A stretch of 64,000 nt of DNA from Apoderus coryli (taxonomy: Eukaryota; Arthropoda; Insecta; Coleoptera; Attelabidae). Numbering within the stretch: the first letter of the stretch is position 1; each line of letters opens with the position of its first letter. The translations under genes were made by a program, and so were the position numbers. The notes beneath the pieces were generated by a model. That model ran no database searches, had not been told where the DNA came from, and saw only the letters and a list, made by a program, of their open reading frames with translations. Of this stretch, positions 21,819 through 43,569 are shown one piece after another. The stretch is from NCBI GenBank assembly GCA_911728435.2, contig OU452200.1, positions 930,001-994,000 on the forward strand. Direction: 5' to 3'.

Positions 21819-21875
<57 letters not shown>

Positions 21876-24800
21876 GGACGCAGTAGACGCATGAGATGGA
21901 GTACTAACTTGAATAAGGATGTCATGCGCTACTACTTCATAGCCACAAGCCTCGAAACGGATTTTACTGATTATAGGGATAGACTAAAGAATATGTTTGC
22001 TGCTGAACATCCAGAACACAATGATATTACAGCACAACGCCTATCCGATCAGCGTAGAGCAATACAGAGAAACAATCTATTAACCCAAATTGAAATTCAG
22101 TATATTTTAGACAGAGTGAGGGAGGAACTAAATATACCTCATACGCCCAATCAGTCTTTTGAGGATGACAATGTTTATGGTACCCATACACCCTCAGATT
22201 CGCCACGTGGTTCACCATTCAATAACATAGATATAGAGATTCCTCAAGAGCCCCACCAAGAGGACGAAATACTTAATACTTACCATGCTAACTTACTGAA
22301 ATACCTTGGAATGGACCCTAACGTTAGACCTCCCATACAAAAACTTAGATTTAACAAGAACACAGGAACACTTATAAATAGAGCCAATTCCATCCTAGAA
22401 CAAACGCTAAACGATGGTATGAATCTTGAAGAGGTACATTCCACGATATATTGCGCGGCAATTACCGTAGTGAGCCTTAATCAAAAATATACATCACCTA
22501 ACAAAAAAAATACAGATGGGTATTTACCATCATGGCAACGCCGCCTCACCAATAAAATTAATGGCCTACGAAGGAGTATCGGTAAAACTCAACAGTACCA
22601 CGACGGAAATAGAAACAACAGATTGCTTAGAACACTGCCGACAGACTTAAAAGACATTATACAAACAATCAATGCCGAAACGGAAAATAAAGTGCGTACA
22701 TACCTTGATACACTTAAACAAAAGTTAGCAGCATACTCAGCTCGATTAAAGAGATACAGAGAAAGTTACTCAAGACGCAGAGACAACAGCCTATTTTCGA
22801 ACAATGAAAAGGCGTTTTACTCATCACTATCAAAAAAATATGATAACCTTAACCCCCCAGATCTTGAAAGTCAGACCAACTACTGGACGAGTATATGGTC
22901 ACAGAGCAATAACCATACAAAAAATACTTGGATAAACCAAGAAATGAAAGCACAGAACTCTCTACAACCAATGAATGAAATTGTAATAACCCAAGCAGAT
23001 CTAACAGCTGCTTTAAAGAAAATTGCAAACTGGAAAGCGCCCGGACGCGATGGCTTGCATAGCTTTTGGTATAAACGATTCACAGCTTGTCATGAACTCT
23101 TAGTTAACAATTTCAACGATGTCATTAGATTTCCTAACAACTTTCCAACATTTTTAACTGAAGGACTTACTTATTTAATTCCAAAGACTGATAACCCGGA
23201 TCACCCTTCGTTGTTTCGTCCCATTACATGCTTGCCGACCCTTTATAAGATCCTTACGTCGATATTATGTGCTAAACTTGAAGACCACCTGGAACTGGCT
23301 CAAGTGATGACAGATGAGCAGAAAGGTGCTAGACGCAACGTTATGGGATGCAAGGAGCAGCTGGTTGTCGATTCCGTAGTTATGCAGCAGTTGAGGGTGG
23401 GGCAGAGAAATGCACACATTGCATACATCGACTATAAAAAAGCATTTGACTCTGTCCCTCACTCTTGGCTCAAATTTGTATTGACACTGTATAAAGTACA
23501 TCCTACGCTTATACTTTTTCTTGAGACAACTATGAGGGCCTGGCGAACCACACTGTCTCAAAAAATAAATAACGAACTAGTATTTAGCGGGAGCATACCT
23601 CTGCGCAGAGGTATCTTTCAGGGGGATTCGCTCAGTGCCCTATGGTTTTGTCTGTCTCTAAACCCAATTTCAAACACTCTTAAGAAAACAGAGTATGGAG
23701 TAAAATTAAAAAATAATGTACAGGATCTCTTAGTAAGTCACCTTTTCTATGTTGATGACCTAAAAGTGTATGCAGCAAATGACAGACAGCTGAGAGCCAT
23801 GCTAAAGCTGGTGCATGATATGAGTTCGGACATAGGTATGACTTTTGGACTGGAGAAGTGCCGCACGATCAAAATGGTCAAAGGGGTACTTAAAGAGTCA
23901 CAACCTATAGAAATTAATAACGAGGTCGTCATACAAGGTATTGAAGAACCCTATAAATACCTGGGTATAGATCAGACCCATAAAATAGAACATACAACGA
24001 TGAAATCGAAACTGTCTACTGAATTTGAAAAGCGAGTTAAGCTAATTATCAAAACAAAACTAAACTCAAAAAATATCGTTAAGGCTATAAACACATATGC
24101 AATATCTGCCTTAACCCATTCCTTTGGCATAATCAGATGGTCTGATACAGATCTTGATGCACTAAATAGACGAATCAGAACACTTCTAACGCACAAAAGA
24201 ATGCATCACCCAAATGCATGCACTGAGAGAGTCACATTGCCTAGATGCCTGGGAGGTAGAGGTTTAAAAGATGTTAAAGCAATGTACTATGAACAGCTGG
24301 ATAATATTAGAAAATATTTTTACAAAAACTCGGATAAACCGATGTACCGTGCAGTGATCGAGGCAGATAAAAATTTGACCACACTTAATTTAAAATCCCG
24401 AGAATATAACCCAAAAACACACATTACTACCAACGAGGATAAAATTAGGATGTGGTCAGGAAAGCAACTCCATGGAAGATTTTACAACTCCGTTCAAAAC
24501 AATTACGTTGACAAATCCCTCTCTTTTATGTGGGCTACAAAAGGTTACCTCCATCCTGAAACTGAAGGATTCTTAATGGCCACGCAGGACCAAGTTATAA
24601 AAACACGAAATTACGCCAAATACATACTGGGAGAAGACCTGAGTTCTGATAAATGCCGCAAGTGCGGAGCTGTTTCCGAAACTATAGATCATATTTTGGG
24701 ATCCTGTAACACACTAGCAAATACGAAGTACTTGACTCGACACAATCAAGTAGCACATATAATCCATCAGAAAATACTGATAGACAGAAAAATGAAAACC

Positions 24801-25247
24801 GAAATTGTCCCCTACTACAAATATGTGCCAAACGAAGTTGAGGAAAACGATCAATTTAAAATATATTGGGACAAAACAATTTACACCGATCATACAATAG
24901 AACACAACCGTCCTGATATTACATTAATAGACAAGAAAAAACACACAACATATCTAATTGATGTTTCTATACCAGGAACACACAATCTGCAACAAAAACA
25001 TACGGAAAAATTAAACAAATATCAAGCGCTTCAACATGAAATAAAGCGCATCTGGAATATGAGGGAAGTGTACATAATACCTATAATACTATCGTCGATA
25101 GGAGTAATACCGAAAAATTTGGAAAAGAACCTAAAAATGATTCAAATCCCTATTACCGTAATTGAGGAGATGCAGAAAGCTGCGATACTGCAATCTCTCA
25201 ACATTGTGAGATCTTTCTTGGCTGTTGGCAATGCTCATGAATCTTGA
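21753..25247 (+). CDS. R4/Dong-type RT-endonuclease, family A element 1 (5'-truncated)
   Basis: Element sequence runs 21874 to about 25347. From 21874 to the stop it aligns without a single gap to element 3 (constant offset 8096), with only about six substitutions seen; a small cluster at 23980-23990 changes HKIEH to PKKKH. The N-terminal ~75 residues of the full protein are missing, but the SANT/Myb-like segment (RSRRMRWSTNLNKDVMRYYF), RT (YIDYKKAFDSVPHSW, FYVDDLKVYA), CCHC (CRKCGAVSETIDHILGSC) and endonuclease (RPDITLIDKKKHTTYLIDV) are intact. The frame stays open through the (AAT)n tract, read as about 17 Asn, back to a flanking ATG at 21753, so a chimeric start is formally possible. Whether that start is used is unknown. 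3' UTR about 43 nt, then 57 A and (TAA)n. Confidence 0.85.
21819..21873 (+). repeat. (TAA)n tract, left edge of nest
   Basis: About 17 TAA/AAT units directly joined to the truncated 5' end of element 1 at CTGGACGCAG (21874). Confidence 0.95.
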
Positions 25248-25290
25248 AACCTTGTTTTCCGATTCTAAAGCAAAATATACCCTTATGGTG

Positions 25291-25349
<59 letters not shown>

Positions 25350-25366
25350 ATAATAATAATAATAAT
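25291..25366 (+). repeat. poly(A) plus (TAA)n tail of element 1
   Basis: 57 A residues (25291-25347) followed by six TAA units (25348-25366). Element 2 begins at 25367 (GTCCGATACC). Confidence 0.95.
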
Positions 25367-25596
25367 GTCCGATACCCTTTACTACCCACATTCCATTACC
25401 TACTTACCTTACCCCACTACCACCATACTTACCTCACCTCCCTTCTATATTCAAACTTACCTTCAGTATATGGAACATCCCTGTACATACTTCCTGCCGT
25501 CCTACCAATTTTATATCCGTCTAAACCCGGATAAGAATAGGTTTAGGGTTCCCTTTAACCTGCAGTAGAAGCCTGCATTTAAGGAGAAAACAAATA

Positions 25597-28500
25597 ATGA
25601 TGAGCTCAAATAAAAATGGCCCTGAGTCCCCGGCAGACCTTCAATGGTCACAGGGTGCGAAGAATCCCCGGGAGGAAACAATAAATACTAGAAATACAAA
25701 CCAAACGCAAGAAACCATAATCTCCAAAGAACAATTGGAATCCCAGGAATGGAATCTGTCTCAAAACAATAAGAGAATGACCCGACAAAATGTTGAAGTC
25801 CCTCACGAGGCTGATCGCGGCGCTAGAAGAACATGGTCCAGAAATGATAATCTGGACGTTTTCAGAGCGTACTTTCTGGGGACCCAATTTGAAACACAAA
25901 AACGAGGATTTAGAAAAAATATGCTATTAGAATGGAGAAAAATAAGACCGGATTTAATTTTAAACGAAAACCAACTAGCAAATCAACTATATGCAATAAA
26001 AACTCATAATTTGCTTACTGCTGTTGATATAGAGGAATTGAAACAGAATATGTCTGAGACGGATCAAGGTATAGAAACTGATAACACAATAATTTATGAA
26101 CAAACAAATGAGAGCAATACGCAAACAATAAACATACAAAATAACCTTGCACTGAATGTGGATCTGGATGCGGGTGAGAATGTAAATGATGTTGTAGTGA
26201 GATTCCAGGAGAACATCGCGGTTTTTAAGAACTCTGATCCAGAAAAACGGCTTAGCTTACCAAAAATAAAACCAACAAAAAAAACAAAACAGCTAATATC
26301 AATAGTAAACCAGGAAATCCTTAAATATATGCCAACTAGCAATCTGGAGGAAACACAGACACTTGTCTACACCGCTGCAAAAACAGTTATTGAATCTATG
26401 GGAGTTAAATTGGGAAAAAAGCAAAAGGCCAAGAAGGAACCCAAATGGAGAGAACGTATAGAACAAAAAATAAAAACGTTAAGAAGTTGGCTAACAAAGA
26501 TACGAGATTGGGAGAGAGGTAACATGAGCACCAAATTATCTAACGATATACATTACTATTTTAGGAAAAACAATATTCAGCACTCAAATTACCAAGAGAA
26601 GGAAACATTTAAAGAAAAAATAAAACAACAAATAGCAGCACTGGGAAACCGGCTGAGACGATACAATAAAAGTTACAAACGAAAAAATGACAACAAACTG
26701 TTTAAGAATAACGAGAAAGAGTTCTACAAAAAACTTAATAATGAACCACCAATTGAACAGGGACCAGACAAGGAACAACTACAAACATTTTGGAAAAACG
26801 TATGGGCATCCAAACAACAATACAATCAAAAGGCATCATGGCTTAAAACGGAAAAAAAGAAATACGACACATTAATAGACATGGAGATTAGTCCAATAAC
26901 TGAGACTGAAGTTAAGAACGCTTTAAATAGATCACACAACTGGAAAGCACCGGGGGTGGATCATGTTCATAACTATTGGTGGAAAAATATAAATATCACA
27001 AAGTTGCTTACAAAACAAATTAATGAACTACTAACAAACAACACATATCATCCTAAATTTTTAACGAAAGGAATTACCTCAATGATACCTAAAAAAGGAG
27101 ATACAACTAACCCAAAAAACTATCGACCCATAACGTGTCTACCCACTTTGTATAAAATAATCACCTCAATTCTAAGTCAAAAAATAATCAAGCACATTGA
27201 AGACTCTGGAATCTTAACTGAAGAGCAAAAGGGTTGTCGGCATGGTACATTAGGAAGCAAGGAACAATTGGTGATCGACTCTATAGTTACACAAGATGCT
27301 AAAAAGAGAAACAAAAATATGGCAGTGGCATGGATCGATTATCAGAAAGCCTTTGATAGTGTTCCACATTCTTGGTTAATAGATGTACTAAAACTTTACA
27401 AAATCAGCCCAAATATAATAAATTTTTTAGCCACAGCAATGAAAACCTGGAGAACGAAACTCGTAGTTAAAACGGAAAAAACAAATATAGTAACGGATGA
27501 AATACCGATCCAGAGTGGCATATTTCAGGGAGATTCCCTAAGCCCTTTTTGGTTTGTGTTGTGCCTGAACCCACTCTCAAATATGTTAAAAGACACTAGA
27601 ATAGGATATACACTGAGGTATGAGGATAGTGATTATACAATAAATCATTTATTTTATGTAGATGACCTCAAACTCTATGCATCAACAGAGAAACAATTAG
27701 ACAGACTTATTGAGACGACACAAAAGTTCACTCTTGACATCAAAATGAAGTTGGGTTTTGATAAATGTGCAAAATTAGTAGCTCAAAAGGGAAAGTTACA
27801 AACTTACGAAAATTTAGAAAATAGCGAAACATTCAGATACCTAAACAATGATTACTACAAATACCTCGGCTATAACCAAAAATTGGTTTTAGATCAAAAA
27901 AATATAATAGAAAACACGGAACAAAAAATGGTTGATAGAATAAGAAAAATCCTAAGATCAGAACTAACTGGTAAAAACAAAATCAAAGCCATAAATACGT
28001 ATGCATTGCCAGTGTTATCTTATTCCTTTGGAATAATCAGGTGGTCTAAGACAAGCATTGAAGCAATGAATAGAAAAATTAGAGTTTTGCTAACAGAATA
28101 TAGGTGCCACCATCCCCATGCATGTACTGAACGTTTATACTTACCAAGAAATGTGGGCGGAAGAGGACTACTAGACCTACACCGACTATGCGATAGACAA
28201 ATTAATCTACTAAAAACCTACTTTAACAGAAAATCTCTCCTATCGCCATTACACCGTCAAGTCAAGCGACTGGATTATTATTCACCTCTACAGCTCAGCA
28301 ATAACACCATGCGCGAAACACTTACTAATGACCACATAAGAGAACAATGGCTAGAAAAATCGTTGCATGGAAAATATCCGTATGCCCTGTCTCAGGCAGA
28401 TGCAGAGTTGTCAACCATGTGGCTTAAACATGGACTATTGTTCGCGGAAACCGAGGGTTTTCTGGTATCAATACAGGACGGAGTAACGCCCACCAGAAAC

Positions 28501-29124
28501 TACCAAAAATACATACAGAAAATTCCAATTGAAAATGATAAGTGTAGAATGTGTTTCGCCAAATCAGAAACAACGGAACATATCCTCTCAGCGTGCAGCA
28601 GCTTAGCGCCCACAGAATATACAAAAAGGCATAATTTAACAGCAGGAATAATTCATCAGGAAATAGCCGTACAATGCAAACTTATAGAGAAAAAAGAAAA
28701 ATATTTTCTATACAACCCATTCCCGTTTTTACAAAACGATAATTATAAACTTTATTGGGATTTCCCAATAATCACAGATAGACCTATCGCAAGTAATCGT
28801 CCTGACATAACCCTGGTAGACCGGAAAAATAAGACTGCTTACTTCGTCGATATTTCTCACCCGGCTGACCACAACCTCCTAAATAAAGAGAAAGAAAAAA
28901 TAAATAAGTATCAAGACCTTTGTACGGAATTTAAGAATATTTATAAACTGGACAAGGTACTTACTGTTCCTATTATAATATCAGTGACGGGACTGATTGG
29001 GAAAAACCTGCCACGCTTTCTGAAACAAATAGACATTGATCAGCGAAACATAACATTGATGCAAAGATCGGTGATCCTTGAGTCATGTAGAATCATGAGA
29101 AAAACCCTAAACCTGCCTGAATAG
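25597..29124 (+). CDS. R4/Dong-type RT-endonuclease, family B element 2 (full length)
   Basis: Uninterrupted 1175-residue ORF with a 230-bp 5' leader (25367-25596) starting directly after (TAA)n; two ATGs in tandem at 25597. The N-terminus is polar and Q/N-rich, then a SANT/Myb-like segment (RRTWSRNDNLDVFRAYF, about residue 75). RT: NWKAPGVDHVHNYWW, YRPITCLPTLYKIITSIL, WIDYQKAFDSVPHSW, FYVDDLKLYA (about 686). CCHC CRMCFAKSETTEHILSAC is at about 983, RHN soon after, and the PD..D endonuclease RPDITLVDRKNKTAYFVDI at about 1068. It is clearly homologous to families A and D yet strongly diverged at nucleotide level. The 3' UTR is about 35 nt before an A-rich tract at 29160-29201. All key residues are present, so it could be active. 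Confidence 0.9.
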   Translation: MMSSNKNGPESPADLQWSQGAKNPREETINTRNTNQTQETIISKEQLESQEWNLSQNNKRMTRQNVEVPHEADRGARRTWSRNDNLDVFRAYFLGTQFETQKRGFRKNMLLEWRKIRPDLILNENQLANQLYAIKTHNLLTAVDIEELKQNMSETDQGIETDNTIIYEQTNESNTQTINIQNNLALNVDLDAGENVNDVVVRFQENIAVFKNSDPEKRLSLPKIKPTKKTKQLISIVNQEILKYMPTSNLEETQTLVYTAAKTVIESMGVKLGKKQKAKKEPKWRERIEQKIKTLRSWLTKIRDWERGNMSTKLSNDIHYYFRKNNIQHSNYQEKETFKEKIKQQIAALGNRLRRYNKSYKRKNDNKLFKNNEKEFYKKLNNEPPIEQGPDKEQLQTFWKNVWASKQQYNQKASWLKTEKKKYDTLIDMEISPITETEVKNALNRSHNWKAPGVDHVHNYWWKNINITKLLTKQINELLTNNTYHPKFLTKGITSMIPKKGDTTNPKNYRPITCLPTLYKIITSILSQKIIKHIEDSGILTEEQKGCRHGTLGSKEQLVIDSIVTQDAKKRNKNMAVAWIDYQKAFDSVPHSWLIDVLKLYKISPNIINFLATAMKTWRTKLVVKTEKTNIVTDEIPIQSGIFQGDSLSPFWFVLCLNPLSNMLKDTRIGYTLRYEDSDYTINHLFYVDDLKLYASTEKQLDRLIETTQKFTLDIKMKLGFDKCAKLVAQKGKLQTYENLENSETFRYLNNDYYKYLGYNQKLVLDQKNIIENTEQKMVDRIRKILRSELTGKNKIKAINTYALPVLSYSFGIIRWSKTSIEAMNRKIRVLLTEYRCHHPHACTERLYLPRNVGGRGLLDLHRLCDRQINLLKTYFNRKSLLSPLHRQVKRLDYYSPLQLSNNTMRETLTNDHIREQWLEKSLHGKYPYALSQADAELSTMWLKHGLLFAETEGFLVSIQDGVTPTRNYQKYIQKIPIENDKCRMCFAKSETTEHILSACSSLAPTEYTKRHNLTAGIIHQEIAVQCKLIEKKEKYFLYNPFPFLQNDNYKLYWDFPIITDRPIASNRPDITLVDRKNKTAYFVDISHPADHNLLNKEKEKINKYQDLCTEFKNIYKLDKVLTVPIIISVTGLIGKNLPRFLKQIDIDQRNITLMQRSVILESCRIMRKTLNLPE

Positions 29125-29201
29125 AGTATAAAGGCAGCGGATAAAAAGTTGGACATCTGAAAAAAAAGAAAAAAAAAAAAAAAAAAAAAAAAAAGAAAAA
29201 A

Positions 29202-29425
29202 GTAAATGAATGATAAATAAATATAAGTTTTAAATACGTACCTTGATTCCCTCCCCTATTTAAAGAAAAAGTATATACTTATTAATAATATCTGAAGCAT
29301 ACTTAATGAAATCCTAGAAGTACTTACCGTGTTAAAACAAATCTGTAGTGATTGGTTATCAAACCCCACTGCAGAATTTCTCCTATCTGGAAGAAAGTAG
29401 AAGGATGTAAAAAAAAAAAAAAAAA

Positions 29426-29427
<2 letters not shown>
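29202..29427 (+). mobile_element. Possible short 3' fragment of another TAA-targeting element
   Basis: About 205 bp of sequence with no homology seen to the other families, ending in 19 A (29409-29427) and then (TAA)n. It lies between the A-rich end of element 2 and the 5' start of element 3. Two readings are possible: a severely 5'-truncated element of an unseen family, or a continuation of element 2's 3' UTR with a second poly(A). Confidence 0.45.

Positions 29428-29473
<46 letters not shown>
29428..29473 (+). repeat. (TAA)n tract before element 3
   Basis: About 15 TAA units. Element 3 starts at 29474 with GTCTGGCCGG. Confidence 0.95.
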
Positions 29474-29474
<1 letters not shown>

Positions 29475-29743
29475 TCTGGCCGGAAAAGGTACTGCAGCCA
29501 ACAGTATACTTACCGCTACAGTAACGACGTAGACTGTACAGCCAGGGACGCAATGTCTGACCGGTTGGGGCATACCCACCGCTACCGTAATGCGTAAACG
29601 GTACAGTCAGTACGTCCAGCTGTCCAGCTGTCCCAATACCCACCTAGTATCCTACTCCTAATGTCCTTTGCACTACCAAACACCTTTCCCTAACCCCAAT
29701 TGGCTGGCGGTAGCCATAAAACGCACACCATTTTCTATGAAAG

Positions 29744-32700
29744 ATGAGTCAAAGGAGAAATGAAAGAATGCGGCAGCCTGGAATGCCCCAGGGCACGTCT
29801 GGAGCCAACGCTGGACGTGGCAGTATGCGATCCGTTGGTGGTAGGTTGCTGAATAGGCGGGCACCTATCGCTCAAGAAACTACAGCCAACAGCAATAATG
29901 TGGAAATACCACCAGCTGACCCACAACCAGCAGCCAATGTTAGGGAGGATAATCCTCCCCCCATAGCTCCTGGACGCAGTAGACGCATGAGATGGAGTAC
30001 TAACTTGAATAAGGATGTCATGCGCTACTACTTCATAGCCACAAGCCTCGAAACGGATTTTACTGATTATAGGGATAGACTAAAGAATATGTTTGCTGCT
30101 GAACATCCAGAACACAATGATATTACAGCACAACGCCTATCCGATCAGCGTAGAGCAATACAGAGAAACAATCTATTAACCCAAATTGAAATTCAGTATA
30201 TTTTAGACAGAGTGAGGGAGGAACTAAATATACCTCATACGCCCAATCAGTCTTTTGAGGATGACAATGTTTATGGTACCCATACACCCTCAGATTCGCC
30301 ACGTGGTTCACCATTCAATAACATAGATATAGAGATTCCTCAAGAGCCCCACCAAGAGGACGAAATACTTAATACTTACCATGCTAACTTACTGAAATAC
30401 CTTGGAATGGACCCTAACGTTAGACCTCCCATACAAAAACTTAGATTTAACAAGAACACAGGAACACTTATAAATAGAGCCAATTCCATCCTAGAACAAA
30501 CGCTAAACGATGGTATGAATCTTGAAGAGGTACATTCCACGATATATTGCGCGGCAATTACCGTAGTGAGCCTTAATCAAAAATATACATCACCTAACAA
30601 AAAAAATACAGATGGGTATTTACCATCATGGCAACGCCGCCTCACCAATAAAATTAATGGCCTACGAAGGAGTATCGGTAAAACTCAACAGTACCACGAC
30701 GGAAATAGAAACAACAGATTGCTTAGAACACTGCCGACAGACTTAAAAGACATTATACAAACAATCAATGCCGAAACGGAAAATAAAGTGCGTACATACC
30801 TTGATACACTTAAACAAAAGTTAGCAGCATACTCAGCTCGATTAAAGAGATACAGAGAAAGTTACTCAAGACGCAGAGACAACAGCCTATTTTCGAACAA
30901 TGAAAAGGCGTTTTACTCATCACTATCAAAAAAATATGATAACCTTAACCCCCCAGATCTTGAAAGTCAGACCAACTACTGGACGAGTATATGGTCACAG
31001 AGCAATAACCATACAAAAAATACTTGGATAAACCAAGAAATGAAAGCACAGAACTCTCTACAACCAATGAATGAAATTGTAATAACCCAAGCAGATCTAA
31101 CAGCTGCTTTAAAGAAAATTGCAAATTGGAAAGCGCCCGGACGCGATGGCTTGCATAGCTTTTGGTATAAACGATTCACAGCTTGTCATGAACTCTTAGT
31201 TAACAATTTCAACGATGTCATTAGATTTCCTAACAACTTTCCAACATTTTTAACTGAAGGACTTACTTATTTAATTCCAAAGACTGATAACCCGGATCAC
31301 CCTTCGTTGTTTCGTCCCATTACATGCTTGCCGACCCTTTATAAGATCCTTACGTCGATATTATGTGCTAAACTTGAAGACCACCTGGAACTGGCTCAAG
31401 TGATGACAGATGAGCAGAAAGGTGCTAGACGCAACGTTATGGGATGCAAGGAGCAGCTGGTTGTCGATTCCGTAGTTATGCAGCAGTTGAGGGTGGGGCA
31501 GAGAAATGCACACATTGCATACATCGACTATAAAAAAGCATTTGACTCTGTCCCTCACTCTTGGCTCAAATTTGTATTGACACTGTATAAAGTACATCCT
31601 ACGCTTATACTTTTTCTTGAGACAACTATGAGGGCCTGGCGAACCACACTGTCTCAAAAAATAAATAACGAACTAGTATTTAGCGGGAGCATACCTCTGC
31701 GCAGAGGTATCTTTCAGGGGGATTCGCTCAGTGCCCTATGGTTTTGTCTGTCTCTAAACCCAATTTCAAACACTCTTAAGAAAACAGAGTATGGAGTAAA
31801 ATTAAAAAATAATGTACAGGATCTCTTAGTAAGTCACCTTTTCTATGTTGATGACCTAAAAGTATATGCAGCAAATGACAGACAGCTGAGAGCCATGCTA
31901 AAGCTGGTGCATGATATGAGTTCGGACATAGGTATGACTTTTGGACTGGAGAAGTGCCGCACGATCAAAATGGTCAAAGGGGTACTTAAAGAGTCACAAC
32001 CTATAGAAATTAATAACGAGGTCGTCATACAAGGTATTGAAGAACCCTATAAATACCTGGGTATAGATCAGACCCCTAAAAAAAAACATACAACGATGAA
32101 ATCGAAACTGTCTACTGAATTTGAAAAGCGAGTTAAGCTAATTATCAAAACAAAACTAAACTCAAAAAATATCGTTAAGGCTATAAACACATATGCAATA
32201 TCTGCCTTAACCCATTCCTTTGGCATAATCAGATGGTCTGATACAGATCTTGATGCACTAAATAGACGAATCAGAACACTTCTAACGCACAAAAGAATGC
32301 ATCACCCAAATGCATGCACTGAAAGAGTCACATTGCCTAGATGCCTGGGAGGTAGAGGTTTAAAAGATGTTAAAGCAATGTACTATGAACAGCTGGATAA
32401 TATTAGAAAATATTTTTACAAAAACTCGGATAAACCGATGTACCGTGCAGTGATCGAGGCAGATAAAAATTTGACCACACTTAATTTAAAATCCCGAGAA
32501 TATAACCCAAAAACACACATTACTACCAACGAGGATAAAATTAGGATGTGGTCAGGAAAGCAACTCCATGGAAGATTTTACAACTCCGTTCAAAACAATT
32601 ACGTTGACAAATCCCTCTCTTTTATGTGGGCTACAAAAGGTTACCTCCATCCTGAAACTGAAGGATTCTTAATGGCCACGCAGGACCAAGTTATAAAAAC

Positions 32701-33343
32701 ACGAAATTACGCCAAATACATACTGGGAGAAGACCTGAGTTCTGATAAATGCCGCAAGTGCGGAGCTGTTTCCGAAACTATAGATCATATTTTGGGATCC
32801 TGTAACACACTAGCAAATACGAAGTACTTGACTCGACACAATCAAGTAGCACATATAATCCATCAGAAAATACTGATAGACAGAAAAATGAAAACCGAAA
32901 TTGTCCCCTACTACAAATATGTGCCAAACGAAGTTGAGGAAAACGATCAATTTAAAATATATTGGGACAAAACAATTTACACCGATCATACAATAGAACA
33001 CAACCGTCCTGATATTACATTAATAGACAAGAAAAAACACACAACATATCTAATTGATGTTTCTATACCAGGAACACACAATCTGCAACAAAAACATACG
33101 GAAAAATTAAACAAATATCAAGCGCTTCAACATGAAATAAAGCGCATCTGGAATATGAGGGAAGTGTACATAATACCTATAATACTATCGTCGATAGGAG
33201 TAATACCGAAAAATTTGGAAAAGAACCTAAAAATGATTCAAATCCCTATTACCGTAATTGAGGAGATGCAGAAAGCTGCGATACTGCAATCTCTCAACAT
33301 TGTGAGATCTTTCTTGGCTGTTGGCAATGCTCATGAATCTTGA
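29744..33343 (+). CDS. R4/Dong-type RT-endonuclease, family A element 3 (full length)
   Basis: Complete 1199-residue ORF; 5' leader 29474-29743 begins directly after (TAA)n. Proline- and Asn-rich N-terminus, then the SANT/Myb-like RSRRMRWSTNLNKDVMRYYF (about residue 78-97), a nucleic-acid-binding segment also seen near the N-terminus of R2-group proteins. RT: NWKAPGRDGLHSFWYKRF, FRPITCLPTLYKILTSIL, YIDYKKAFDSVPHSW (about 594), FYVDDLKVYA (about 699). CCHC CRKCGAVSETIDHILGSC is at about 1003-1020 and the endonuclease RPDITLIDKKKHTTYLIDV at about 1087-1105. 3' UTR of about 42 nt, 60 A residues, then (TAA)n. It is the apparent full-length reference for elements 1 and 8, with no frameshift or stop. 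Confidence 0.92.
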   Translation: MSQRRNERMRQPGMPQGTSGANAGRGSMRSVGGRLLNRRAPIAQETTANSNNVEIPPADPQPAANVREDNPPPIAPGRSRRMRWSTNLNKDVMRYYFIATSLETDFTDYRDRLKNMFAAEHPEHNDITAQRLSDQRRAIQRNNLLTQIEIQYILDRVREELNIPHTPNQSFEDDNVYGTHTPSDSPRGSPFNNIDIEIPQEPHQEDEILNTYHANLLKYLGMDPNVRPPIQKLRFNKNTGTLINRANSILEQTLNDGMNLEEVHSTIYCAAITVVSLNQKYTSPNKKNTDGYLPSWQRRLTNKINGLRRSIGKTQQYHDGNRNNRLLRTLPTDLKDIIQTINAETENKVRTYLDTLKQKLAAYSARLKRYRESYSRRRDNSLFSNNEKAFYSSLSKKYDNLNPPDLESQTNYWTSIWSQSNNHTKNTWINQEMKAQNSLQPMNEIVITQADLTAALKKIANWKAPGRDGLHSFWYKRFTACHELLVNNFNDVIRFPNNFPTFLTEGLTYLIPKTDNPDHPSLFRPITCLPTLYKILTSILCAKLEDHLELAQVMTDEQKGARRNVMGCKEQLVVDSVVMQQLRVGQRNAHIAYIDYKKAFDSVPHSWLKFVLTLYKVHPTLILFLETTMRAWRTTLSQKINNELVFSGSIPLRRGIFQGDSLSALWFCLSLNPISNTLKKTEYGVKLKNNVQDLLVSHLFYVDDLKVYAANDRQLRAMLKLVHDMSSDIGMTFGLEKCRTIKMVKGVLKESQPIEINNEVVIQGIEEPYKYLGIDQTPKKKHTTMKSKLSTEFEKRVKLIIKTKLNSKNIVKAINTYAISALTHSFGIIRWSDTDLDALNRRIRTLLTHKRMHHPNACTERVTLPRCLGGRGLKDVKAMYYEQLDNIRKYFYKNSDKPMYRAVIEADKNLTTLNLKSREYNPKTHITTNEDKIRMWSGKQLHGRFYNSVQNNYVDKSLSFMWATKGYLHPETEGFLMATQDQVIKTRNYAKYILGEDLSSDKCRKCGAVSETIDHILGSCNTLANTKYLTRHNQVAHIIHQKILIDRKMKTEIVPYYKYVPNEVEENDQFKIYWDKTIYTDHTIEHNRPDITLIDKKKHTTYLIDVSIPGTHNLQQKHTEKLNKYQALQHEIKRIWNMREVYIIPIILSSIGVIPKNLEKNLKMIQIPITVIEEMQKAAILQSLNIVRSFLAVGNAHES

Positions 33344-33382
33344 AACCTTGTTTTCCGATTCTAAAGCAAAATATACCCTTAT

Positions 33383-33385
<3 letters not shown>

Positions 33386-33447
<62 letters not shown>

Positions 33448-33466
33448 ATAATAATAATAATAATAA
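33386..33466 (+). repeat. poly(A) plus (TAA)n tail of element 3
   Basis: About 60 A (33386-33445) followed by seven TAA units; element 4 begins at 33467 (GCCCCTCGAGG). Confidence 0.95.
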
Positions 33467-33643
33467 GCCCCTCGAGGCATCCACACGTCCACGTCGTGAG
33501 GGGTGGGCAACAGCACTGCTGGCTAAGATGGATGTAACAGCTGATAAACAACCAGCAAACTCCCGTGTGTCTCCGGGTCACAAAATAAAAAATAGAGAGA
33601 CCTGCCACAGGTTTAAGTGGCGACCATATTATTTTATGAGAGA

Positions 33644-36600
33644 ATGAGTAATGAAAATTTGGATAGAATGCGATTGCCTGAGGAGGGCTCTGGGATTTCT
33701 GGAGCTGACCCTGGATCCCAGGATAATGCGAGCGGTCAGTGGCGAGGAAGGCAAGGGAGGCAGCTTCCTCGTCGGGTACAACTCGAATATGCTACTGCTA
33801 CCCAAACTCAGAGAAAAAGAACAAATCATCTCTCCGACAGAGCTTCCGAGGCCGAGGGTGACCATACCGGAGAAATCCAAGATGGACCTAAGAGCCAAAC
33901 ATCAGTTGATACGGAAAATGCACCGGAAAATAGAAAGAGAAAATATTGGACTAGAGAGGAAATGAGAGAGGTGTTGTGGTGCTTTTCGTATAAAAGAGCT
34001 ACTTCTGTCGATAACTATAGAGAAGTGTATGAACTATGGAGATCTAGAAACCCTAACACCAGATTAAATGTAGATGCAAAAAAACTACTCAATCAGAAGA
34101 ATTCAATAATTAAAAGCAACAAATTTTCACAAATGGAGAAAGAAGAAATTGAGGAGGAGATTAGATTACAAATACAAGAAGAAGACCAAGAGGAAGAACA
34201 AGGGAAAACAAGACAAGAAGACGATAGTTTACGAGACACAGAACAGAGAAATGTGAGCACAGAACAAGTACAAATACAAAATGTAAATGCGCACAATGAA
34301 CAAACAACAAATAACTATGATGAGAATCACGAACAAGAACTCGTTGAAGATCAGGATAGCCTGGACCTAAAAATAGAAATAAGAGCAGAATTTGAAGATA
34401 TTCGGTTAAAATCTTTGTGTGATAGAGATAAGCTGCCTAAAATTCCTATGTATTTAATGGGAAAAATAAATGTTATAAACAAAGTAGTTGAAGATATCCT
34501 ACAAGAAGAATCACTTAATATAACCGACCTGAATAACCTTATATATGCCGCGGCCAAAACATTCTATAACAAATACTTACCATCAAAATATACAAATAAG
34601 TCAAAAACAAAGCGCCACAGGGAGCCCCCTTGGAAATTCCGACTGCAGAACAAACTCAACAATACGAGGAAAACTTTGTCAAGATTAACAGACATTAAAA
34701 GAAGAGGATTAAATTTCCAACATAACAACATATTAAAAATAGAGAACATAACGAACAAAACTGATCTAAACCAACGGATTGAAGAACTTAAACAAAAAAT
34801 CACAGCCACTTCTGCTAGGATACGAAGGATAGACAACTCGCAAAAGCAATACTTACAAAACCAAATGTATAAAAATAATCGAAAACAACTATTCCGTCAA
34901 ATTACAAACAGCGGAAGAATAAATGATACTAACAAAATTCCAACAAAAAATGATCTCGAGCACTTTTGGGGAGGAATACTAGAGGATGAAACCACACACA
35001 ATAAAGAGGCAAAATGGATAAAAAGACATAACCAACAAAAAAATATTATAGCCCCAATGCAATGGGAACCGATTGCTCTCGGAGAATTACAAAGCAGCTT
35101 AAAAAATTGTCAGGACTGGAAAGCGCCAGGACCGGATTGTATACCAAACTTTTGGTTGAAAAAACTTACTAGCTCTCACGAACATTTGACAAGAGTGTAC
35201 AATAACCTTACAGAGAATCATAACTTAATACCGGACTGGCTGACCTCGGGAAAGACTATATTGATCCCCAAAAACGAAGACACAGAAAATGCGAAAAACT
35301 ACAGACCGGTAACATGTCTTAACACGATGTACAAAAACCTAACGTCAATAATAACAAAGAGATTATATAAACATATTGAGAACAACAAACTGTTACCTCC
35401 TGAACAAAAAGGATGTCGTCAGAGAGTTCAGGGATGTAAGGACCAAATACTTCTTTCAAATATGATTTCTCTCGACTGTAAAACGAAGAAAAAGAATCTA
35501 AGTGTGGCCTGGATCGATTACCAAAAGGCATTTGATTCAGTGCCTCACAGCTGGATAATCGAGGCTCTGGATATGATAGGAATACATCCCATTGCACGAG
35601 AATTACTAATACAAACAATGAAAATGTGGAAAACAAAAATAGTTATAAACACACCACTAAAAACGATTGAGACACGAACAATACATATAAAAAAAGGAAT
35701 CTATCAGGGAGACTCCTTGTCACCCCTGCTGTTTTGTGTTGCGCTGATACCGTTATCTAACGAAATAAGAGAGTCCAAGTTGGGGTACCAATTGCAAGGG
35801 GAAACGAACAAAGTCCATCACCTTCTCTTTATGGACGATTTAAAACTTTTTGGAAAGAACGAAACTGAACTTAATAGTCTTTTAAAAATTGTCGAGAAAT
35901 TTAGCAGAGATATCAATATGCAGTTTGGCTTGGAAAAATGTGCTAGAATTCAATTCCAGCGTGGCAAAATAACAAAAACTACCAATCAAACACCAATGCT
36001 GATTCGCTCATTAGAAGAGAGTGATACGTACAAATATTTAGGTATGAACGAAAGAGAAGGTATAGATCAAGAGCTAATGAAAGAAAAAGTGTCGAAGGAA
36101 TATTTCAAAAGGTTAAGGAAAATATTAGAAACGCATTTATCTTCAAAGAACAAGGCTGAAACTATCAACAGCCTTGCAATTCCTTTGCTGCAATATGGGT
36201 TTGGATTGATTACATGGAAAGTAGAAGAACTTCGCAATCTGGATAGGAAAACTAGAAAACTACTGACCAAGTTCAATTATCACCATCCAAGATCAGACGT
36301 TGATAGAATATACATCCCCAGAAATGAAGGAGGGAGAGGACTAACCCAGATAGAAGGTGCATGGAAAACAGCCATTGTGTCCCTTAATAAATACTTGCAC
36401 AACGAAAACTTAGACAAATATCAGAAAATGATACAAAAGTTTGATGAAGCTCAGCCCACAGGAAAATCAATATCAAAAACAGCGGAAAAGATTATGAAGG
36501 AACTACAGCTAGAGAATGAGCCCACGATCGCAACACAACTGATTAAAAATAAATTACAACAAATAGGAATTGAAAAGTGGAAATCTAAAAATATGCATGG

Positions 36601-37342
36601 ACAACACAAACGAGAAACAGAAAAAGATTACGTAAATAAAAGAATAACATGGGAATGGCTACGAAGGGGACAACTTAAGGGAGAAACCGAGGGGCTGCTT
36701 GTTGCTGCACAAGATCAATCGCTAGCTACAAACTATATCAAAAGAAATATATTCAGAAGCACGCAGGACGCTACTTGTAGATTGTGCAAAGAATTCGATG
36801 AAACGGTAGAACATATAACATCAGGATGTCCAATATTAGCAGCTCGAGAATATATTAACAGGCACAATAAAGTAGCAACGCAATTACACTACAATATTTG
36901 CAAAAGTCTAAACGTGCCCATGGAGACAAATTTATGGTATAAACATATTCCAAAAGCGGTTATGACATCTACCGATGAACAAACAACAATATTATGGGAT
37001 CAACCTATAACAACTGACAGAACAATTAGCAGCAACAGACCGGATATTATAATCAAAACAAAACATTTGTGCCAAATCATAGACGTGTCCATACCGGCTG
37101 ACAGAAATATAGTAAAAAAAGAAGCGGAAAAAATCAATAAATACAGGGATCTTGAAATTGAGATTAAAAGAATGTGGAAGCTAAAAACTAGAATTGTGCC
37201 TGTTGTTGTGGGAGCCACTGGATCGGTCTCCTCTTCATTTGCGAAACACCTATCGGAAATACCTGGCAATCATTCAACCTACGACTTGCAAAAAACGACA
37301 GTATTGGGAACTGCTCATATATTACGTAAAGTACTTACCTAA
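33644..37342 (+). CDS. R4/Dong-type RT-endonuclease, family D element 4 (full length)
   Basis: Single ORF of about 1232 residues. I chose ATG 33644; the frame is open upstream to a GTG at 33617. 5' leader 33467-33643. SANT/Myb-like segment RKYWTREEMREVLWCFSYKR at about residue 100, then an acidic, Gln/Glu-rich low-complexity linker (about 165-245). RT: DWKAPGPDCIPNFWLKKL, WIDYQKAFDSVPHSW, FMDDLKLFG (about 730; FMDD in place of the YVDD of A and B). CCHC CRLCKEFDETVEHITSGC is at about 1045 and the endonuclease RPDIIIKTKHLCQIIDVSI at about 1132. 3' UTR about 65 nt, 27 A, then (TAA)n. No disabling mutation seen. Confidence 0.9.
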   Translation: MSNENLDRMRLPEEGSGISGADPGSQDNASGQWRGRQGRQLPRRVQLEYATATQTQRKRTNHLSDRASEAEGDHTGEIQDGPKSQTSVDTENAPENRKRKYWTREEMREVLWCFSYKRATSVDNYREVYELWRSRNPNTRLNVDAKKLLNQKNSIIKSNKFSQMEKEEIEEEIRLQIQEEDQEEEQGKTRQEDDSLRDTEQRNVSTEQVQIQNVNAHNEQTTNNYDENHEQELVEDQDSLDLKIEIRAEFEDIRLKSLCDRDKLPKIPMYLMGKINVINKVVEDILQEESLNITDLNNLIYAAAKTFYNKYLPSKYTNKSKTKRHREPPWKFRLQNKLNNTRKTLSRLTDIKRRGLNFQHNNILKIENITNKTDLNQRIEELKQKITATSARIRRIDNSQKQYLQNQMYKNNRKQLFRQITNSGRINDTNKIPTKNDLEHFWGGILEDETTHNKEAKWIKRHNQQKNIIAPMQWEPIALGELQSSLKNCQDWKAPGPDCIPNFWLKKLTSSHEHLTRVYNNLTENHNLIPDWLTSGKTILIPKNEDTENAKNYRPVTCLNTMYKNLTSIITKRLYKHIENNKLLPPEQKGCRQRVQGCKDQILLSNMISLDCKTKKKNLSVAWIDYQKAFDSVPHSWIIEALDMIGIHPIARELLIQTMKMWKTKIVINTPLKTIETRTIHIKKGIYQGDSLSPLLFCVALIPLSNEIRESKLGYQLQGETNKVHHLLFMDDLKLFGKNETELNSLLKIVEKFSRDINMQFGLEKCARIQFQRGKITKTTNQTPMLIRSLEESDTYKYLGMNEREGIDQELMKEKVSKEYFKRLRKILETHLSSKNKAETINSLAIPLLQYGFGLITWKVEELRNLDRKTRKLLTKFNYHHPRSDVDRIYIPRNEGGRGLTQIEGAWKTAIVSLNKYLHNENLDKYQKMIQKFDEAQPTGKSISKTAEKIMKELQLENEPTIATQLIKNKLQQIGIEKWKSKNMHGQHKRETEKDYVNKRITWEWLRRGQLKGETEGLLVAAQDQSLATNYIKRNIFRSTQDATCRLCKEFDETVEHITSGCPILAAREYINRHNKVATQLHYNICKSLNVPMETNLWYKHIPKAVMTSTDEQTTILWDQPITTDRTISSNRPDIIIKTKHLCQIIDVSIPADRNIVKKEAEKINKYRDLEIEIKRMWKLKTRIVPVVVGATGSVSSSFAKHLSEIPGNHSTYDLQKTTVLGTAHILRKVLT

Positions 37343-37410
37343 CGGCTACTTACCCTTGGAAGTTGGATAATTTCCCGGTAAATAGTTTTACACCAGTGTG
37401 AAACACTGAG

Positions 37411-37463
37411 AAAAAAAAAAAAAAAAAAAAAAAAAAATAATAATAATAATAATAATAATAATA
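37411..37463 (+). repeat. poly(A) plus (TAA)n tail of element 4
   Basis: 27 A (37411-37437) then about nine TAA units, ending directly at the truncated start of element 5. Confidence 0.95.
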
Positions 37464-37836
37464 GATGTGGCCATACCAGCTGCTCATAATACCGTTGAAA
37501 AACAAAATGAAAAAATCCGCAAATACTTACCTTTAGCATCAGAAATCAAAACTCTGTGGAAACAAGAAAAAGTTATCGTTATACCTATCATCATCGGCGC
37601 GACAGGTGAAATTCCAAAAAAACTCCACAAATACCTCTCGGATTTAAACTTACCGTCAACCCTATTTATAACCCTCCAGAAGATCGCAATCCTAGGAACC
37701 TGCCACATCGCACGTAAAGTATTGAACACTGGAACCTGAAAAGAAAAACAAACATATAAATCCAGAACAAAATTCTTCACACTTGCATGCACTGCCGTGT
37801 GGAGAATACTTACCTGCAAAAGCAGAGAAAACCTGA

Positions 37837-37837
<1 letters not shown>
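37464..37837 (+). mobile_element. 5'-truncated R4-type element, family C (element 5)
   Basis: Begins in the endonuclease at DVAIPAAHN, equivalent to DVSIPGTHN of family A, and encodes the last ~90 residues (…IPIIIGATGEIPKKLHKYL…ILGTCHIARKVLN) to a stop at 37737-37739. The ~98-nt 3' UTR runs straight into (TAA)n with no poly(A), unlike families A, B and element 4. The upstream RT is absent. Confidence 0.85.

Positions 37838-37874
<37 letters not shown>
37838..37874 (+). repeat. (TAA)n between elements 5 and 6
   Basis: About 12 TAA units, with no preceding poly(A). Confidence 0.95.
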
Positions 37875-37875
<1 letters not shown>

Positions 37876-38060
37876 CGTCAACCCTATTTATAACCCTCCA
37901 GAAGATCGCAATCCTAGGAACCTGCCACATCGCACGTAAAGTATTGAACACTGGAACCTGAAAAGAAAAACAAACATATAAATCCAGAACAAAATTCTTC
38001 ACACTTGCATGCACTGCCGTGTGGAGAATACTTACCTGCAAAAGCAGAGAAAACCTGAAA
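37875..38060 (+). mobile_element. Shorter duplicate of family C 3' end (element 6)
   Basis: The 186 bp repeat positions 37653-37837/8 of element 5 at a fixed offset of 222, identical as far as I can see, again ending in (TAA)n. It may be a separate, more truncated insertion or a tandem duplication of a [3' end + TAA] unit by slippage or unequal exchange. Confidence 0.85.
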
Positions 38061-38082
38061 TAATAATAATAATAATAATAAT
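38061..38082 (+). repeat. (TAA)n between elements 6 and 7
   Basis: About seven TAA units. Confidence 0.95.
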
Positions 38083-39230
38083 GACGAAACTAAATCAACA
38101 CCACCCAAGAGCAGATATCGACCGATTGTATGTTTCTAGATCGGAGGGAGGCCGAGGTTTAATGCAAATTGAAAATGCATGGAAAACGAGCATAATATCG
38201 TTGAGCAAATACTTGCAACAACCGAATTTAGACAAATATCAAAAAATTATTAAAACACAAGACGGTAAAAGGCCTGCCGGTAAGTCAATAATAAAACTAG
38301 CAACCAAACTTGAGGAAGAACTACAAATAGAACAAAACACTAAACAAAAAGATATAAAAACTAAACAACAACACATCCTCACAGAAAACTGGAGAACAAA
38401 AAACATGCACGGACAATACAAAAGAGACACAGAACAAGAATACGTCAACAAACGAGAAACATGGAACTGGTTGAGAAAGGGGCATTTAGCAGGTGAAACG
38501 GAGGGACTCCTTATAGCAGCCCAAGATCAAGCACTTACCACTAATTACATAAAGAAAAATATATTTAAGAATACAACAAACGCAAAATGCCGAATGTGCA
38601 AGCAATATGACGAGACTATAGATCATATTCTCTCAGGGTGTCCCATCTTAGCGGCCCGTGAATACATATCTCGCCACGACAGAGTTTGCACACAATTGCA
38701 TTTCAATATTTGTAGGAGCCTGGGCGTAACTCTTGAAACCGAGAAGTGGTATAAACACGCTCCTAAAGACGTCACAAGTTCAGAGTGTGGCCGAACAACA
38801 ATTCTTTGGAACCAACCTGTGATAACGGACAGAACAATACACTGTAACAAACCTGATATAATTATTAAAACAAACGAAATGTGCTATATAATTGACGTTT
38901 CTATTCCAACGGATAAGAACATTAATAAGAAGGAAACAGAGAAAATAATGAAATATAGGGATCTTGAGATAGAAATAAAGCGAATGTGGAACACGAAAAC
39001 TAAAATCTTGCCCGTGGTCCTCGGTGCTACTGGCACTGTATCCTGCTCACTCCAAAAATTCATAGACGAAATACCAGGTAAACACTCCATTTTAGATCTT
39101 CAAAAAACAGCAATTCTAGGAACTTCTCATATAGTGCGCAAAATATTATCATAAAACCAACCACCCTTTGGAAACCGGATAGTTTCCCGGGTGGATAAGA
39201 AATAAACCAGTGGATAAAGCTGAGATATGA
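38083..39230 (+). mobile_element. 5'-truncated R4-type element, family D-like (element 7)
   Basis: Open from the truncation point to a stop at 39152-39154 (about 356 residues). It covers the region after the RT palm: LNQHHPRADIDRLYVSRSEG (compare FNYHHPRSDVDRIYIPRNEG in element 4), CCHC CRMCKQYDETIDHILSGC, RHD, and endonuclease KPDIIIKTNEMCYIIDVSI. The 3' UTR shares GGATAGTTTCCCGG-like sequence with element 4 but ends in (TAA)n without poly(A). A relative of element 4, not a recent copy. Confidence 0.85.
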
Positions 39231-39250
39231 TAATAATAATAATAATAATA
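39231..39250 (+). repeat. (TAA)n between elements 7 and 8
   Basis: About six to seven TAA units, no preceding poly(A). Confidence 0.95.
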
Positions 39251-39707
39251 AAATATATTGGGACAAAACAATTTACACCGATCATACAATAGAACACAAC
39301 CGTCCTGATATTACATTAATAGACAAGAAAAAACACACAACATATCTAATTGATGTCTCTATACCAGGAACACACAATCTGCAACAAAAGCATACGGAAA
39401 AATTAAACAAATACCAAGCGCTTCAACATGAAGTAAAGCGCAACTGGAATATGAGGGAAGTGTACATAATACCTATAATAGTATCCTCGATGGGAGTAAT
39501 ACCGAAAAATTTGGAAGAGAACCTAAAAATGATTCAAATCCCTATTACCGTAATTGAGGAGATGCAGAAAGCTGCGATACTGCAATCTCTCAACATTGTG
39601 AGATCTTTCTTGGCTGTTGGCAATGCTCATGAATCTTGAAACCTTGTTTTCCGATTCTAAAGCAAAATATACCCTTATGGTGGAAAAAAAAAAAAAAAAA
39701 AAAAAAA
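39251..39707 (+). mobile_element. 5'-truncated R4-type element, family A (element 8)
   Basis: Matches the last ~430 bp of elements 1 and 3, starting at AAATATATTGGGACAAAAC within the endonuclease region, with the stop at 39637-39639, the same 3' UTR, then 24 A and (TAA)n. Around nine substitutions are visible (for example GTATCCTCGATGGG versus CTATCGTCGATAGG), so it is older than the element 1/3 pair. Confidence 0.9.
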
Positions 39708-39728
39708 TAATAATAATAATAATAATAA
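39708..39728 (+). repeat. (TAA)n tract, right edge of nest
   Basis: Seven TAA units directly joined to a minus-strand RT fragment; on that strand the tract reads (TTA)n after TAAAAGTCC. Confidence 0.95.
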
Positions 39729-41116
39729 AGGACTTTTATTAAGGGCGAGTTTCAGTTCAGTGTCAGATGCCACTGTCTGTTCAGCTAACCCCCAAAAATC
39801 TAATAATACATTAGCATGGCAAAAATAAACAACAAACAGAAAATAGTAATGCTGTTCACATGATCTAAACACTGACGGAAAGCTAAACGTGTATACAGTA
39901 AATAAAAGAGGTCCCAGTATAGATCTCTGTGGTACCCCTGTAGAAACGAGCGAGTATGTTGATTTTATGCTTTCATAAGTGACTGCCTGCGTCTACAATT
40001 GAGATAAGAAGACATCAGCTGTACCGAGGAGTCTGATAGTCCAACATGCCTTAAAATTGACACCATTAGACGGTGATCCAGAGTATCAAACGCCTTGGAG
40101 AAATCCAAAAGCACAAGCACAGTGAGTTTTGACCTATCAGCAGCAGTCAGTATGTCATCTGTTATTTTGAGTAAAGCAGAATCACAATCATGCCCAGACC
40201 TGAATCCATTCACACGCTATGCAAGTACTGGCGCAGTTGCCTCTCCATTATCTTCTCCAGAACCTTTGAAAAAGTTGGAAGAAGACTAATAGGTCTTTGA
40301 AACTATTTGCTTTAGAAGTTTTTGGCAATGGTATAACCAATGCCCGCTTCCACAAATCCGGAAATACAGAATGCCGGAGACAAAAGTTTATTATATGTGT
40401 GACGTAAAGAAATTATTTACATTCTCGGGATTGCTCAGCGCGGCAGGCTTATTTGTAATATTTAGCAACTTTAGGGCATTCCAAGTATCTTTTTGGTTAA
40501 CAGTGTTTAGCCTCGGGGAGCTTTTCAAAGCCCGTAGACTCGACGTTAACCAGGACGCGTAGAGCTTAGTCATTCTAAAGGTTCTATAGGGCGCATGAAC
40601 ATTGAGTAGTGCAGTTATTGACGATGTTAGAAACTCCACCTTATCATTGACATCGTTCATACAATAAATATTGCGCCAAGGTATATATTTCAAGTCAGAC
40701 AAAAAAATTCTGTATACTAAGTTTCAAAAATCCCTCACTGTCTTCCATATTATAGGACGCTTAGAAACAGCCACGCGCAGACTGCAATAAACCATTTCGT
40801 GATCGCTGATATTAGGTACAGGATCCGAATCTAAAACGATATTCGAATTTGAAACAATATCATAGTCAATAAGGGAACCCGACGCACCAGTGAGTCTTGT
40901 TGGGATGTCGATCATTTGCCTCAAGTCAAGACTATCCAAGATTTCAAGCATTAAAGATGTCATGGGATCGTCAGTATTCAACAAGTTGACATTAAAGTCG
41001 CCCATACACAAGTTATGATCAAATGTCCCAATGAATGACGATATTGTACTCTCAAATACATCCAAAAACTGGGCAAGGTTACATCGTGGGGGTCTGTAAA
41101 TTACTCCTATAGCCAT
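39729..41116 (-). pseudogene. Jockey-like LINE fragment: AP endonuclease and RT
   Basis: Minus-strand order: AP endonuclease C-terminal half (GVIYRPPR, CMGDFNVNLL, ISDHEMVYCSL; 41116-40724), linker (YASWLTSSLRALKSS; 40702-40391), then RT with NGFRSGHDCDSALL, LVLLDFSKAFDTLDH (40213-39965) and a degraded GVPQ.SILGPLLFTVYT. It breaks off at the (TAA)n tract before the FADD box. Several frameshifts and stops make it non-functional. SDH is part of the AP endonuclease active site in Jockey/I/R1 elements. The 5' end is truncated near 41116. Confidence 0.8.
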
Positions 41117-41329
41117 TTTAATATATATAATATAACAAATATTTTAGAGAAGTTAAATATGAAGCGTCAACTCTAAGGAATCTCTTATCTTATCTCAAGT
41201 CAAAAAAGCATCAACATTTTCACAAAAAAAACTATTAGGTTGATATGTAGGATCTGTTTAACAAAGTGACCTTTAAATGTGACAACGTATCTGAAAAAAA
41301 TACATAAAGACAGTACAATAAATATGATC

Positions 41330-43050: not shown

Positions 43051-43513
43051 TGAAACAATAAGACTATTTTGTTTTTATTAGGGGTTGTTCGTACGCAAAT
43101 GAAACGTAATTTTCGACAATATGTTGGGGGGTTTTATTCTAGTTACGTTTTTACAAATACTGAAAATAAAAGTTCTAATTAACATTTCATATTATTTGAT
43201 AATTATCTTAGTTAATTACCTGACACTAAGCCGTAACAACTTTGACAATATATTATTGTAAATTCAGTTTACAAAGCCAAGAGCTGCCAGTATTCGTGTG
43301 CAAACAGAAATGAGAAACAAACAATTCATATTTGCTATCGCGAACCTAACAAAAAACGTTTTATACCAAATTCAGATATTTAATATTTTAAACACACTTA
43401 ATATAGGTGGTGCGACCTAGCGAGCAGATACAATATAATTTATTATTAGTATACGAGGAAATTAGAAACTGCAAAACTGAGTTATTATAAATAGAAATGT
43501 ATATTTTGTTACA
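43051..43513 (-). repeat. 3' LTR of gypsy element
   Basis: 463 bp, identical to 47943-48405. In element orientation it begins TGTAACAAAATATAC and ends TTGTTTCA. Confidence 0.95.
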
Positions 43514-43527: not shown

Positions 43528-43569
43528 ATTTGCCGACTCCAAAAAAAAACTTTTTGATGAGGCAAAAAA

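Follow-up and report, generated by a model that had tools for sequence, protein, structure and literature searches.

Long interspersed nuclear elements (LINEs) of the R4/Dong type are described as carrying an N-terminal Myb/SANT-like domain, and (TAA)n is given as the target of Dong in most insects, molluscs and cnidarians (PMC7998251). In one account, Dong RNA cleaves itself, with seven TAA units as the upstream product (PMC3774820); in another, Dong insertion is argued not to raise the abundance of simple sequence repeats, since the target pre-exists (PMC2887409). LINEs have also been reported to end in simple repeats themselves, the I element in TAA and UnaL2 in TGTAA (PMC3747384). Here, we analyzed a window of 64,000 nucleotides (nt) from the beetle Apoderus coryli (contig OU452200.1, positions 930,001 to 994,000; C7:930001-994000 in the 428-Mb, 129-contig assembly that we searched). 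At 21821-39728 of this window, nine perfect (TAA)n tracts of 6-17 units are interleaved with eight copies of R4/Dong-type LINEs. The array is real, and it is one of several in its genome.

All tracts of the array have TAA on the forward strand and all eight copies, E1 to E8, are sense on that strand, and the tract coordinates and copy alignments thus agree with the original prediction, which was made from the sequence alone. The left edge is T1 (21821-21871, (TAA)17), followed by E1 (21872-25347), a 5'-truncated copy of family A with A sequence from 21874, a frame open to the stop and a poly(A) of 57. T2 (25348-25365, (TAA)6) separates it from E2 (25366-29427), a family B copy with a complete open reading frame (ORF; frame 25525-29124). 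Beyond T3 (29428-29472, (TAA)15) lies E3 (29473-33445), a full-length family A copy with its ORF at 29741-33343 and a poly(A) of 60, and beyond T4 (33446-33466, (TAA)7) lies E4 (33467-37437), of family C, with its ORF at 33617-37342 and an A27 tail. Two 5'-truncated family D copies follow T5 (37438-37461, (TAA)8): E5 (37462-37838) retains the last 91 codons of the ORF and, after T6 (37839-37874, (TAA)12), the shorter E6 (37875-38060) is 100% identical to the end of E5. T7 (38061-38081), T8 (39231-39251) and the right edge, T9 (39708-39728), each (TAA)7, enclose E7 (38082-39230), a 5'-truncated family E copy lacking poly(A), and E8 (39252-39707), a 5'-truncated family A copy ending in A24. The absence of a long poly(A) from the window copies of families D and E corrects the earlier description.

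None of the eight copies contains an internal TAA run of at least four units and, since none is split by another, the array is head-to-tail, not the nest that had been proposed. Outside the array, the window has six runs of at least four units (two TAA, four TTA), each of 4 or 5 units. Runs of at least six units appeared in none of 100 dinucleotide shuffles of the window, in which the longest run was four. No R4-type copy was found within the window upstream of T1 (tblastn, five families), nor any further copy of families A-E in the rest of it (tblastn, E 1e-3).

The original prediction counted at least four families; the multi-family character of the array stands, and protein identities correct the count to five. 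The A, B and C proteins are mutually 31-39% identical, E is 64.5% identical to C, and D, represented in the window by 91 codons, is 41-46% identical to the other families. A sixth family, F, which is 38-39% identical to A, comes from an array on contig C1. E1 and E3 differ at 7 of 3474 positions (99.8% identity), six of them within the ORF, and E8 is 97.8% identical to E1 over 456 nt. Three of the six coding differences between E1 and E3 lie within nine bases (23980-23988 against 32076-32084) and change the protein; gene conversion and a cluster of reverse transcriptase (RT) errors are candidate causes. In E1, E5, E6, E7 and E8 the truncation falls inside the ORF. Comparison with a longer copy, where one exists, shows no base common to the cut end and TAA in E1, three in E8 and one in E6. 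E3 and E4 look full length because other copies begin at the same base beside TAA, as the family C copy L046 does for E4. The 5' untranslated region of E2 is shorter by 174 to 252 nt than in two other B copies. In E2, an A-rich run (29160-29201) and 207 further nt precede its A19; both occur in other B copies too, which rules out 3' transduction.

Families A, B and C each have one large ORF of about 1200 codons, while D and E are truncated in the window, where their copies hold the C-terminal part only. The family A protein has an RT domain, matched by RVT_1 in E3 at 31274-32065 (residues 512-775), followed by a CCHC motif and an RPD..D endonuclease, and B and C fall in the same alignment. Overall, the proteins have the RT, the endonuclease plan and a fold like those of R2-type elements, the fold being taken from a predicted model of A. 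The order of RT and CCHC/RPD..D, together with the R2-like model fold, bears out the assignment to LINEs with a restriction-like endonuclease. In trees of 45 and 49 rows (P0030-P0032, P0034, P0035, P0037-P0044 and P0054-P0067 were omitted by choice), A, B and C clustered away from R2, together with unnamed proteins and proteins of lepidopteran and ladybird origin, with no published Dong or R4 protein among the references. Since A, B and C form one clade relative to R2 in these trees, we ruled out the suggestion that unrelated families converge on the same site; (TAA)n targeting by Dong is itself published (PMC7998251). At the N-terminus, the model of A has four helices at residues 87-161, and W85 is nearly invariant in the alignment; a general Pfam scan gave no match to a Myb domain in family A, and no separate search for one was made. 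An LP(E/G)(E/G)G..G..G motif recurs in A, C and several relatives (29744-29866 and 33668-33775), within an N-terminus that otherwise varies, and may reflect a constraint on the protein or on the RNA.

The 5' end of family C carries an HDV-like ribozyme (33467-33535, + strand; RF02682, 49.8 bits, gathering threshold 44) that begins in E4 at the first base after T4. For families A, B and F, Rfam gave no ribozyme match, either at the window starts of A and B or in the fetched loci where copies of A, B and F lie. Simple RNA folds of the A, B and C starts were no better than those of shuffles, including that of the ribozyme of C.

Beyond the window, we investigated the target of families A and E across the assembly. 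The queries were 344 nt from the end of A and 280 nt from the end of E. For each family we took the best 40 candidates, of 157 for A (all 100% identical) and of 128 for E (95-100% identical), and inspected 220 or 100 nt past each 3' end; three of the 80 ends lie in the window. All 40 family A ends run from poly(A) into TAA, 39 of them directly with at least two units and one after a TTA, and all 40 family E ends reach TAA, 39 of them at a distance of at most 2 nt and the remaining one where the run is interrupted. Thus, 80 of 80 A and E ends lie in TAA and are sense with the TAA strand, as are all eight copies in the window. The fixed orientation that the earlier note had proposed to look for at other (TAA)n loci is therefore found wherever A and E ends were examined.

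Arrays are, moreover, ordinary in this genome, since the tract beyond the end adjoins another R4-type copy in 42 of the 80 cases. This count is a lower bound, because unknown families would go unseen by the rule applied (BLAST E 1e-3 against families A-F, with the start within 15 nt of the tract). Such a neighbor is more common beyond A ends (29/40; in the window, the end at 33385) than beyond E ends (13/40; 39230); candidate causes are age, poly(A) and tract position. The 40 A ends represent 32 places, with 11 pairs at most 15 kb apart compared with 0.055 expected under uniform placement, and their six clusters are each confined to one strand.

Both solo and array insertions, which the original prediction had suggested looking for, were found on contig C1. 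There, we listed 31 tracts of (TAA)9 or longer up to 14.49 Mb, a sample biased towards arrays since long arrays contribute more tracts. Of these, 22 are unoccupied and nine belong to four occupied loci. The largest of the listed loci, C1:10248561-10271076, contains 12 copies, all on the + strand with TAA on the same strand. Their families run F, E, B, E, A, B, D, D, D, F, E, F, and of the final F there is only a tail. A second locus, at 13.01-13.03 Mb, holds A, B and A, and the two others hold one copy each. At L020:3298-5050, two (TAA)9 tracts that share their flanks lie 1.7 kb apart without an R4-type copy, a local duplication.

The surroundings of the tracts point to a source of the targets that the earlier note missed: they look like (TTA)n 3' tails of other LINEs, an origin suggested by a motif at the tract end and by antisense LINE remains there. 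In the window, a decayed LINE of another kind (39729-41143, - strand) has its 3' end at the TAA tract, with AATAAA appearing as TTTATT near 39735; it includes endonuclease-like (40727-41143) and RT-like (39968-40216) segments, both under the Pfam cut-off. The right flank also shows antisense similarity to LINEs with an apurinic/apyrimidinic endonuclease (APE) from 64 nt on, with a best E of 2.8e-20 (tblastn). Similarly, TTTATT lies at most 30 nt from the tract in 32 of the 38 A and E ends lacking an R4-type neighbor (10/11 and 22/27), compared with 4.7% of random 30-mers from the fetched loci, and it also stands beside 17 of the 22 unoccupied C1 tracts. On the opposite strand, this reads as AATAAA followed by (TTA)n, resembling the 3' end of a repeat-tailed LINE. 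A tblastn search with 19 APE-type LINE proteins, within 4 kb on the TTTATT side, recovered antisense LINE similarity at 14 of the 22 unoccupied tracts (11 antisense only, three on both strands), sense similarity only at one and none at seven. Furthermore, the same flank repeat adjoins tracts at several places: at the window, L049 and L050; at the C1 array, L060 and L037; and at L043, L077, L079 and L033. Taken together, the data suggest that these elements insert into TAA runs very consistently, and that most of the runs are repeat tails of other transposons.

We infer the following order of events and enzymatic steps. An old LINE of another clade would have left a (TTA)n tail at the locus, which reads (TAA)n on the + strand, and members of five or more related R4/Dong-type LINE families would then have entered this tract successively, in the orientation opposite to that of the tail-bearing LINE. 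Each protein most likely recognizes (TAA)n and nicks the TTA strand by its restriction-like endonuclease, whereupon the RNA would be copied from its 3' end by target-primed reverse transcription. Such a nick and such priming would yield the fixed orientation, the 5'-truncated copies and TAA usually kept on both sides; with TAA kept on both sides, the locus would remain a target and arrays would accumulate. We consider this account, from the tail to serial insertion of related families, very probable as a whole.

The feedback in this account has two parts. The original prediction held that each insertion ends in new TAA units and so leaves a target. The structure itself implies that an insertion turns one tract into two targets, in keeping with the crowding of copies. 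As for added units, random cutting of a single tract would rarely divide the window's total of 86 units into nine tracts of at least six each (0.0009 by simulation, 0.0004 by formula), a post hoc test that gives 0.21 or 1.0 if five or six units are required on each side. Since the tracts of the 12-copy C1 array (14, 3, 11, 1, 14, 4, 2, 10, 5, 10, 6, 11 and 5 units) do not repeat the window pattern, we no longer take tract length as evidence that insertion adds TAA. Cluster sizes can tell feedback from constant targets: in a toy model with one insertion per tract on average, the probability of at least eight is 1.0e-5 without and 3.9e-3 with target multiplication.

Several points weigh against our account. 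Human LINE-1 chains also match the model of A over residues 227-1196, with Z up to 31.8, so the fold by itself does not single out R2, and the trees were built without any published Dong or R4 protein. The 3' ends were chosen by best score, which selects the youngest copies and under-represents old ones, and families B, C and D fall outside this test; a B copy at C1:14.49 Mb is preceded by 26 TAA units and followed by none. E5 and E6 may represent a 222-nt local duplication instead of two insertions. Support for the proposed tail origin comes from a short motif and from LINE similarity that is weak, and since unoccupied tracts bear TTTATT about as often, the data do not establish that tails are preferred to other TAA tracts: the tail signs explain the source of the targets, not a preference.

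Among the alternatives, the strongest treats the tracts as plain microsatellites, beside which LINE remains lie by coincidence or because those LINEs too insert into (TTA)n. A target common to the two kinds of LINE is conceivable, and the seven unoccupied tracts without LINE similarity and the one with sense similarity only fit this explanation. Nevertheless, we regard it as unlikely, given the TTTATT motif near 32 of 38 ends (within 30 nt; background 5%), a strand bias of 14 to 1 (three of the 14 with matches on both strands), and the pair L024 and L035, which have the same 3' flank repeat and different 5' flanks, as tails would give. It is less likely still that fewer than eight insertions took place, with unequal exchange or slippage between the TAA tracts producing part of the array. 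Repeats favor exchange, E1 and E3 are nearly identical, and E5/E6 resemble a tandem duplication; however, E1 is cut internally where it meets TAA while E3 is complete, their neighbors differ, and in many other arrays the adjoining copies belong to different families and are cut at different points. If the R4-type element made the TAA units as a tail of its own (I elements end in TAA repeats; PMC3747384), this would fit the TAA after every A and E 3' end examined, yet the idea is very improbable: T1 precedes the first copy, 5' junctions also meet TAA, the B copy noted above has TAA on its 5' side only, and empty (TAA)n tracts occur with the same 3' flank repeat, such as L037, whose repeat is common to the C1 array and L060. 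An assembly artefact can be virtually dismissed, even though the joints are of low complexity, some copies are near-identical and the array is known from the assembly alone, since the same junctions recur across the assembly with different families and cut points.

Serial insertion into a LINE tail also raises a more general possibility, on which we are evenly divided: the R4/Dong-type LINEs of this genome may be confined almost entirely to (TTA)n tails that belong to other LINEs, in the opposite orientation, with tails seeding the loci, insertions splitting them and arrays growing by feedback. This would account for mixed-family arrays and join two separately known facts, that LINEs can end in simple repeats and that LINEs can target them. 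If true, the activity of other LINEs would set the number of homes for R4/Dong-type elements, and the tails of one clade would be the homes of another, a food chain among transposons, away from genes. The idea is testable in any good insect assembly.

Species genomes gave seven relatives among 34, and viral contigs gave seven pattern matches and no relatives. Among 67 database proteins, poly-Asn or poly-Ile read-through amounted to one short internal run, which was uninformative. L001 (best segment 41%), whose contig is listed as Streptomyces narbonensis, shows A8-(TAA)3 174 nt past its stop, a string found in 0 of 5000 mononucleotide shuffles; this is likely a TAA junction, the end of the element itself not having been located. 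In L002, L003 and L004, on contigs filed under bacteria, RT sequence adjoins eukaryotic 28S ribosomal DNA (rDNA); contamination and misbinning are candidate explanations. Short runs of TAA or TTA occur at other places in L003 and L005. For L005-L007 the analysis covered the repeats, and for L005 and L006 the frames as well. The window also contains a young Gypsy-type long terminal repeat element (43051-48242, - strand), whose direct-repeat 300-nt pieces are 100% identical. It has a pol frame (43570-46911) with the usual domains and a second frame (46827-47966) without a Pfam match, and its best named relative is from Photinus pyralis (51%). Segment 471-1085 matches RVT_1 (50 bits) as a piece of the RT of another LINE, and 1801-2400 weakly resembles a DDE transposase, under the cut-off.

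Of the known systems, Dong of Bombyx mori and other Dong-type elements of the R4 clade are alike in their (TAA)n target, RT and C-terminal restriction-like endonuclease, and in an HDV-like ribozyme at the 5' end beside TAA, here in family C (PMC7998251, PMC3774820). As far as these accounts of Dong go, they mention neither several families in one tract nor LINE tails as the target, and in the open-licence literature we found no report of mixed R4/Dong families in one tract or of insertion into LINE tails. Utopia, in Phytophthora U2 genes, has the same endonuclease type and places several families in one target array (PMC4640811). Its target, however, is a gene array, and the upstream U2 part is lost on insertion, whereas here TAA is mostly kept on both sides. 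SART and TRAS are R1-type elements with an APE endonuclease. They too are LINE families stacked in a short tandem repeat, the (TTAGG)n telomeres (PMC10088271), and SART1 is reported to require at least three repeat units and a long poly(A) (PMC7265360); unlike the copies here, SART and TRAS are oppositely oriented and lie at chromosome ends. R2 and its relatives in 28S rDNA have the same protein plan and fold, while the R2 target is a unique gene site and not a microsatellite. Against this background, the element type and its target were already known; new are multi-family arrays as a common state and the tails of other LINEs as their putative homes.

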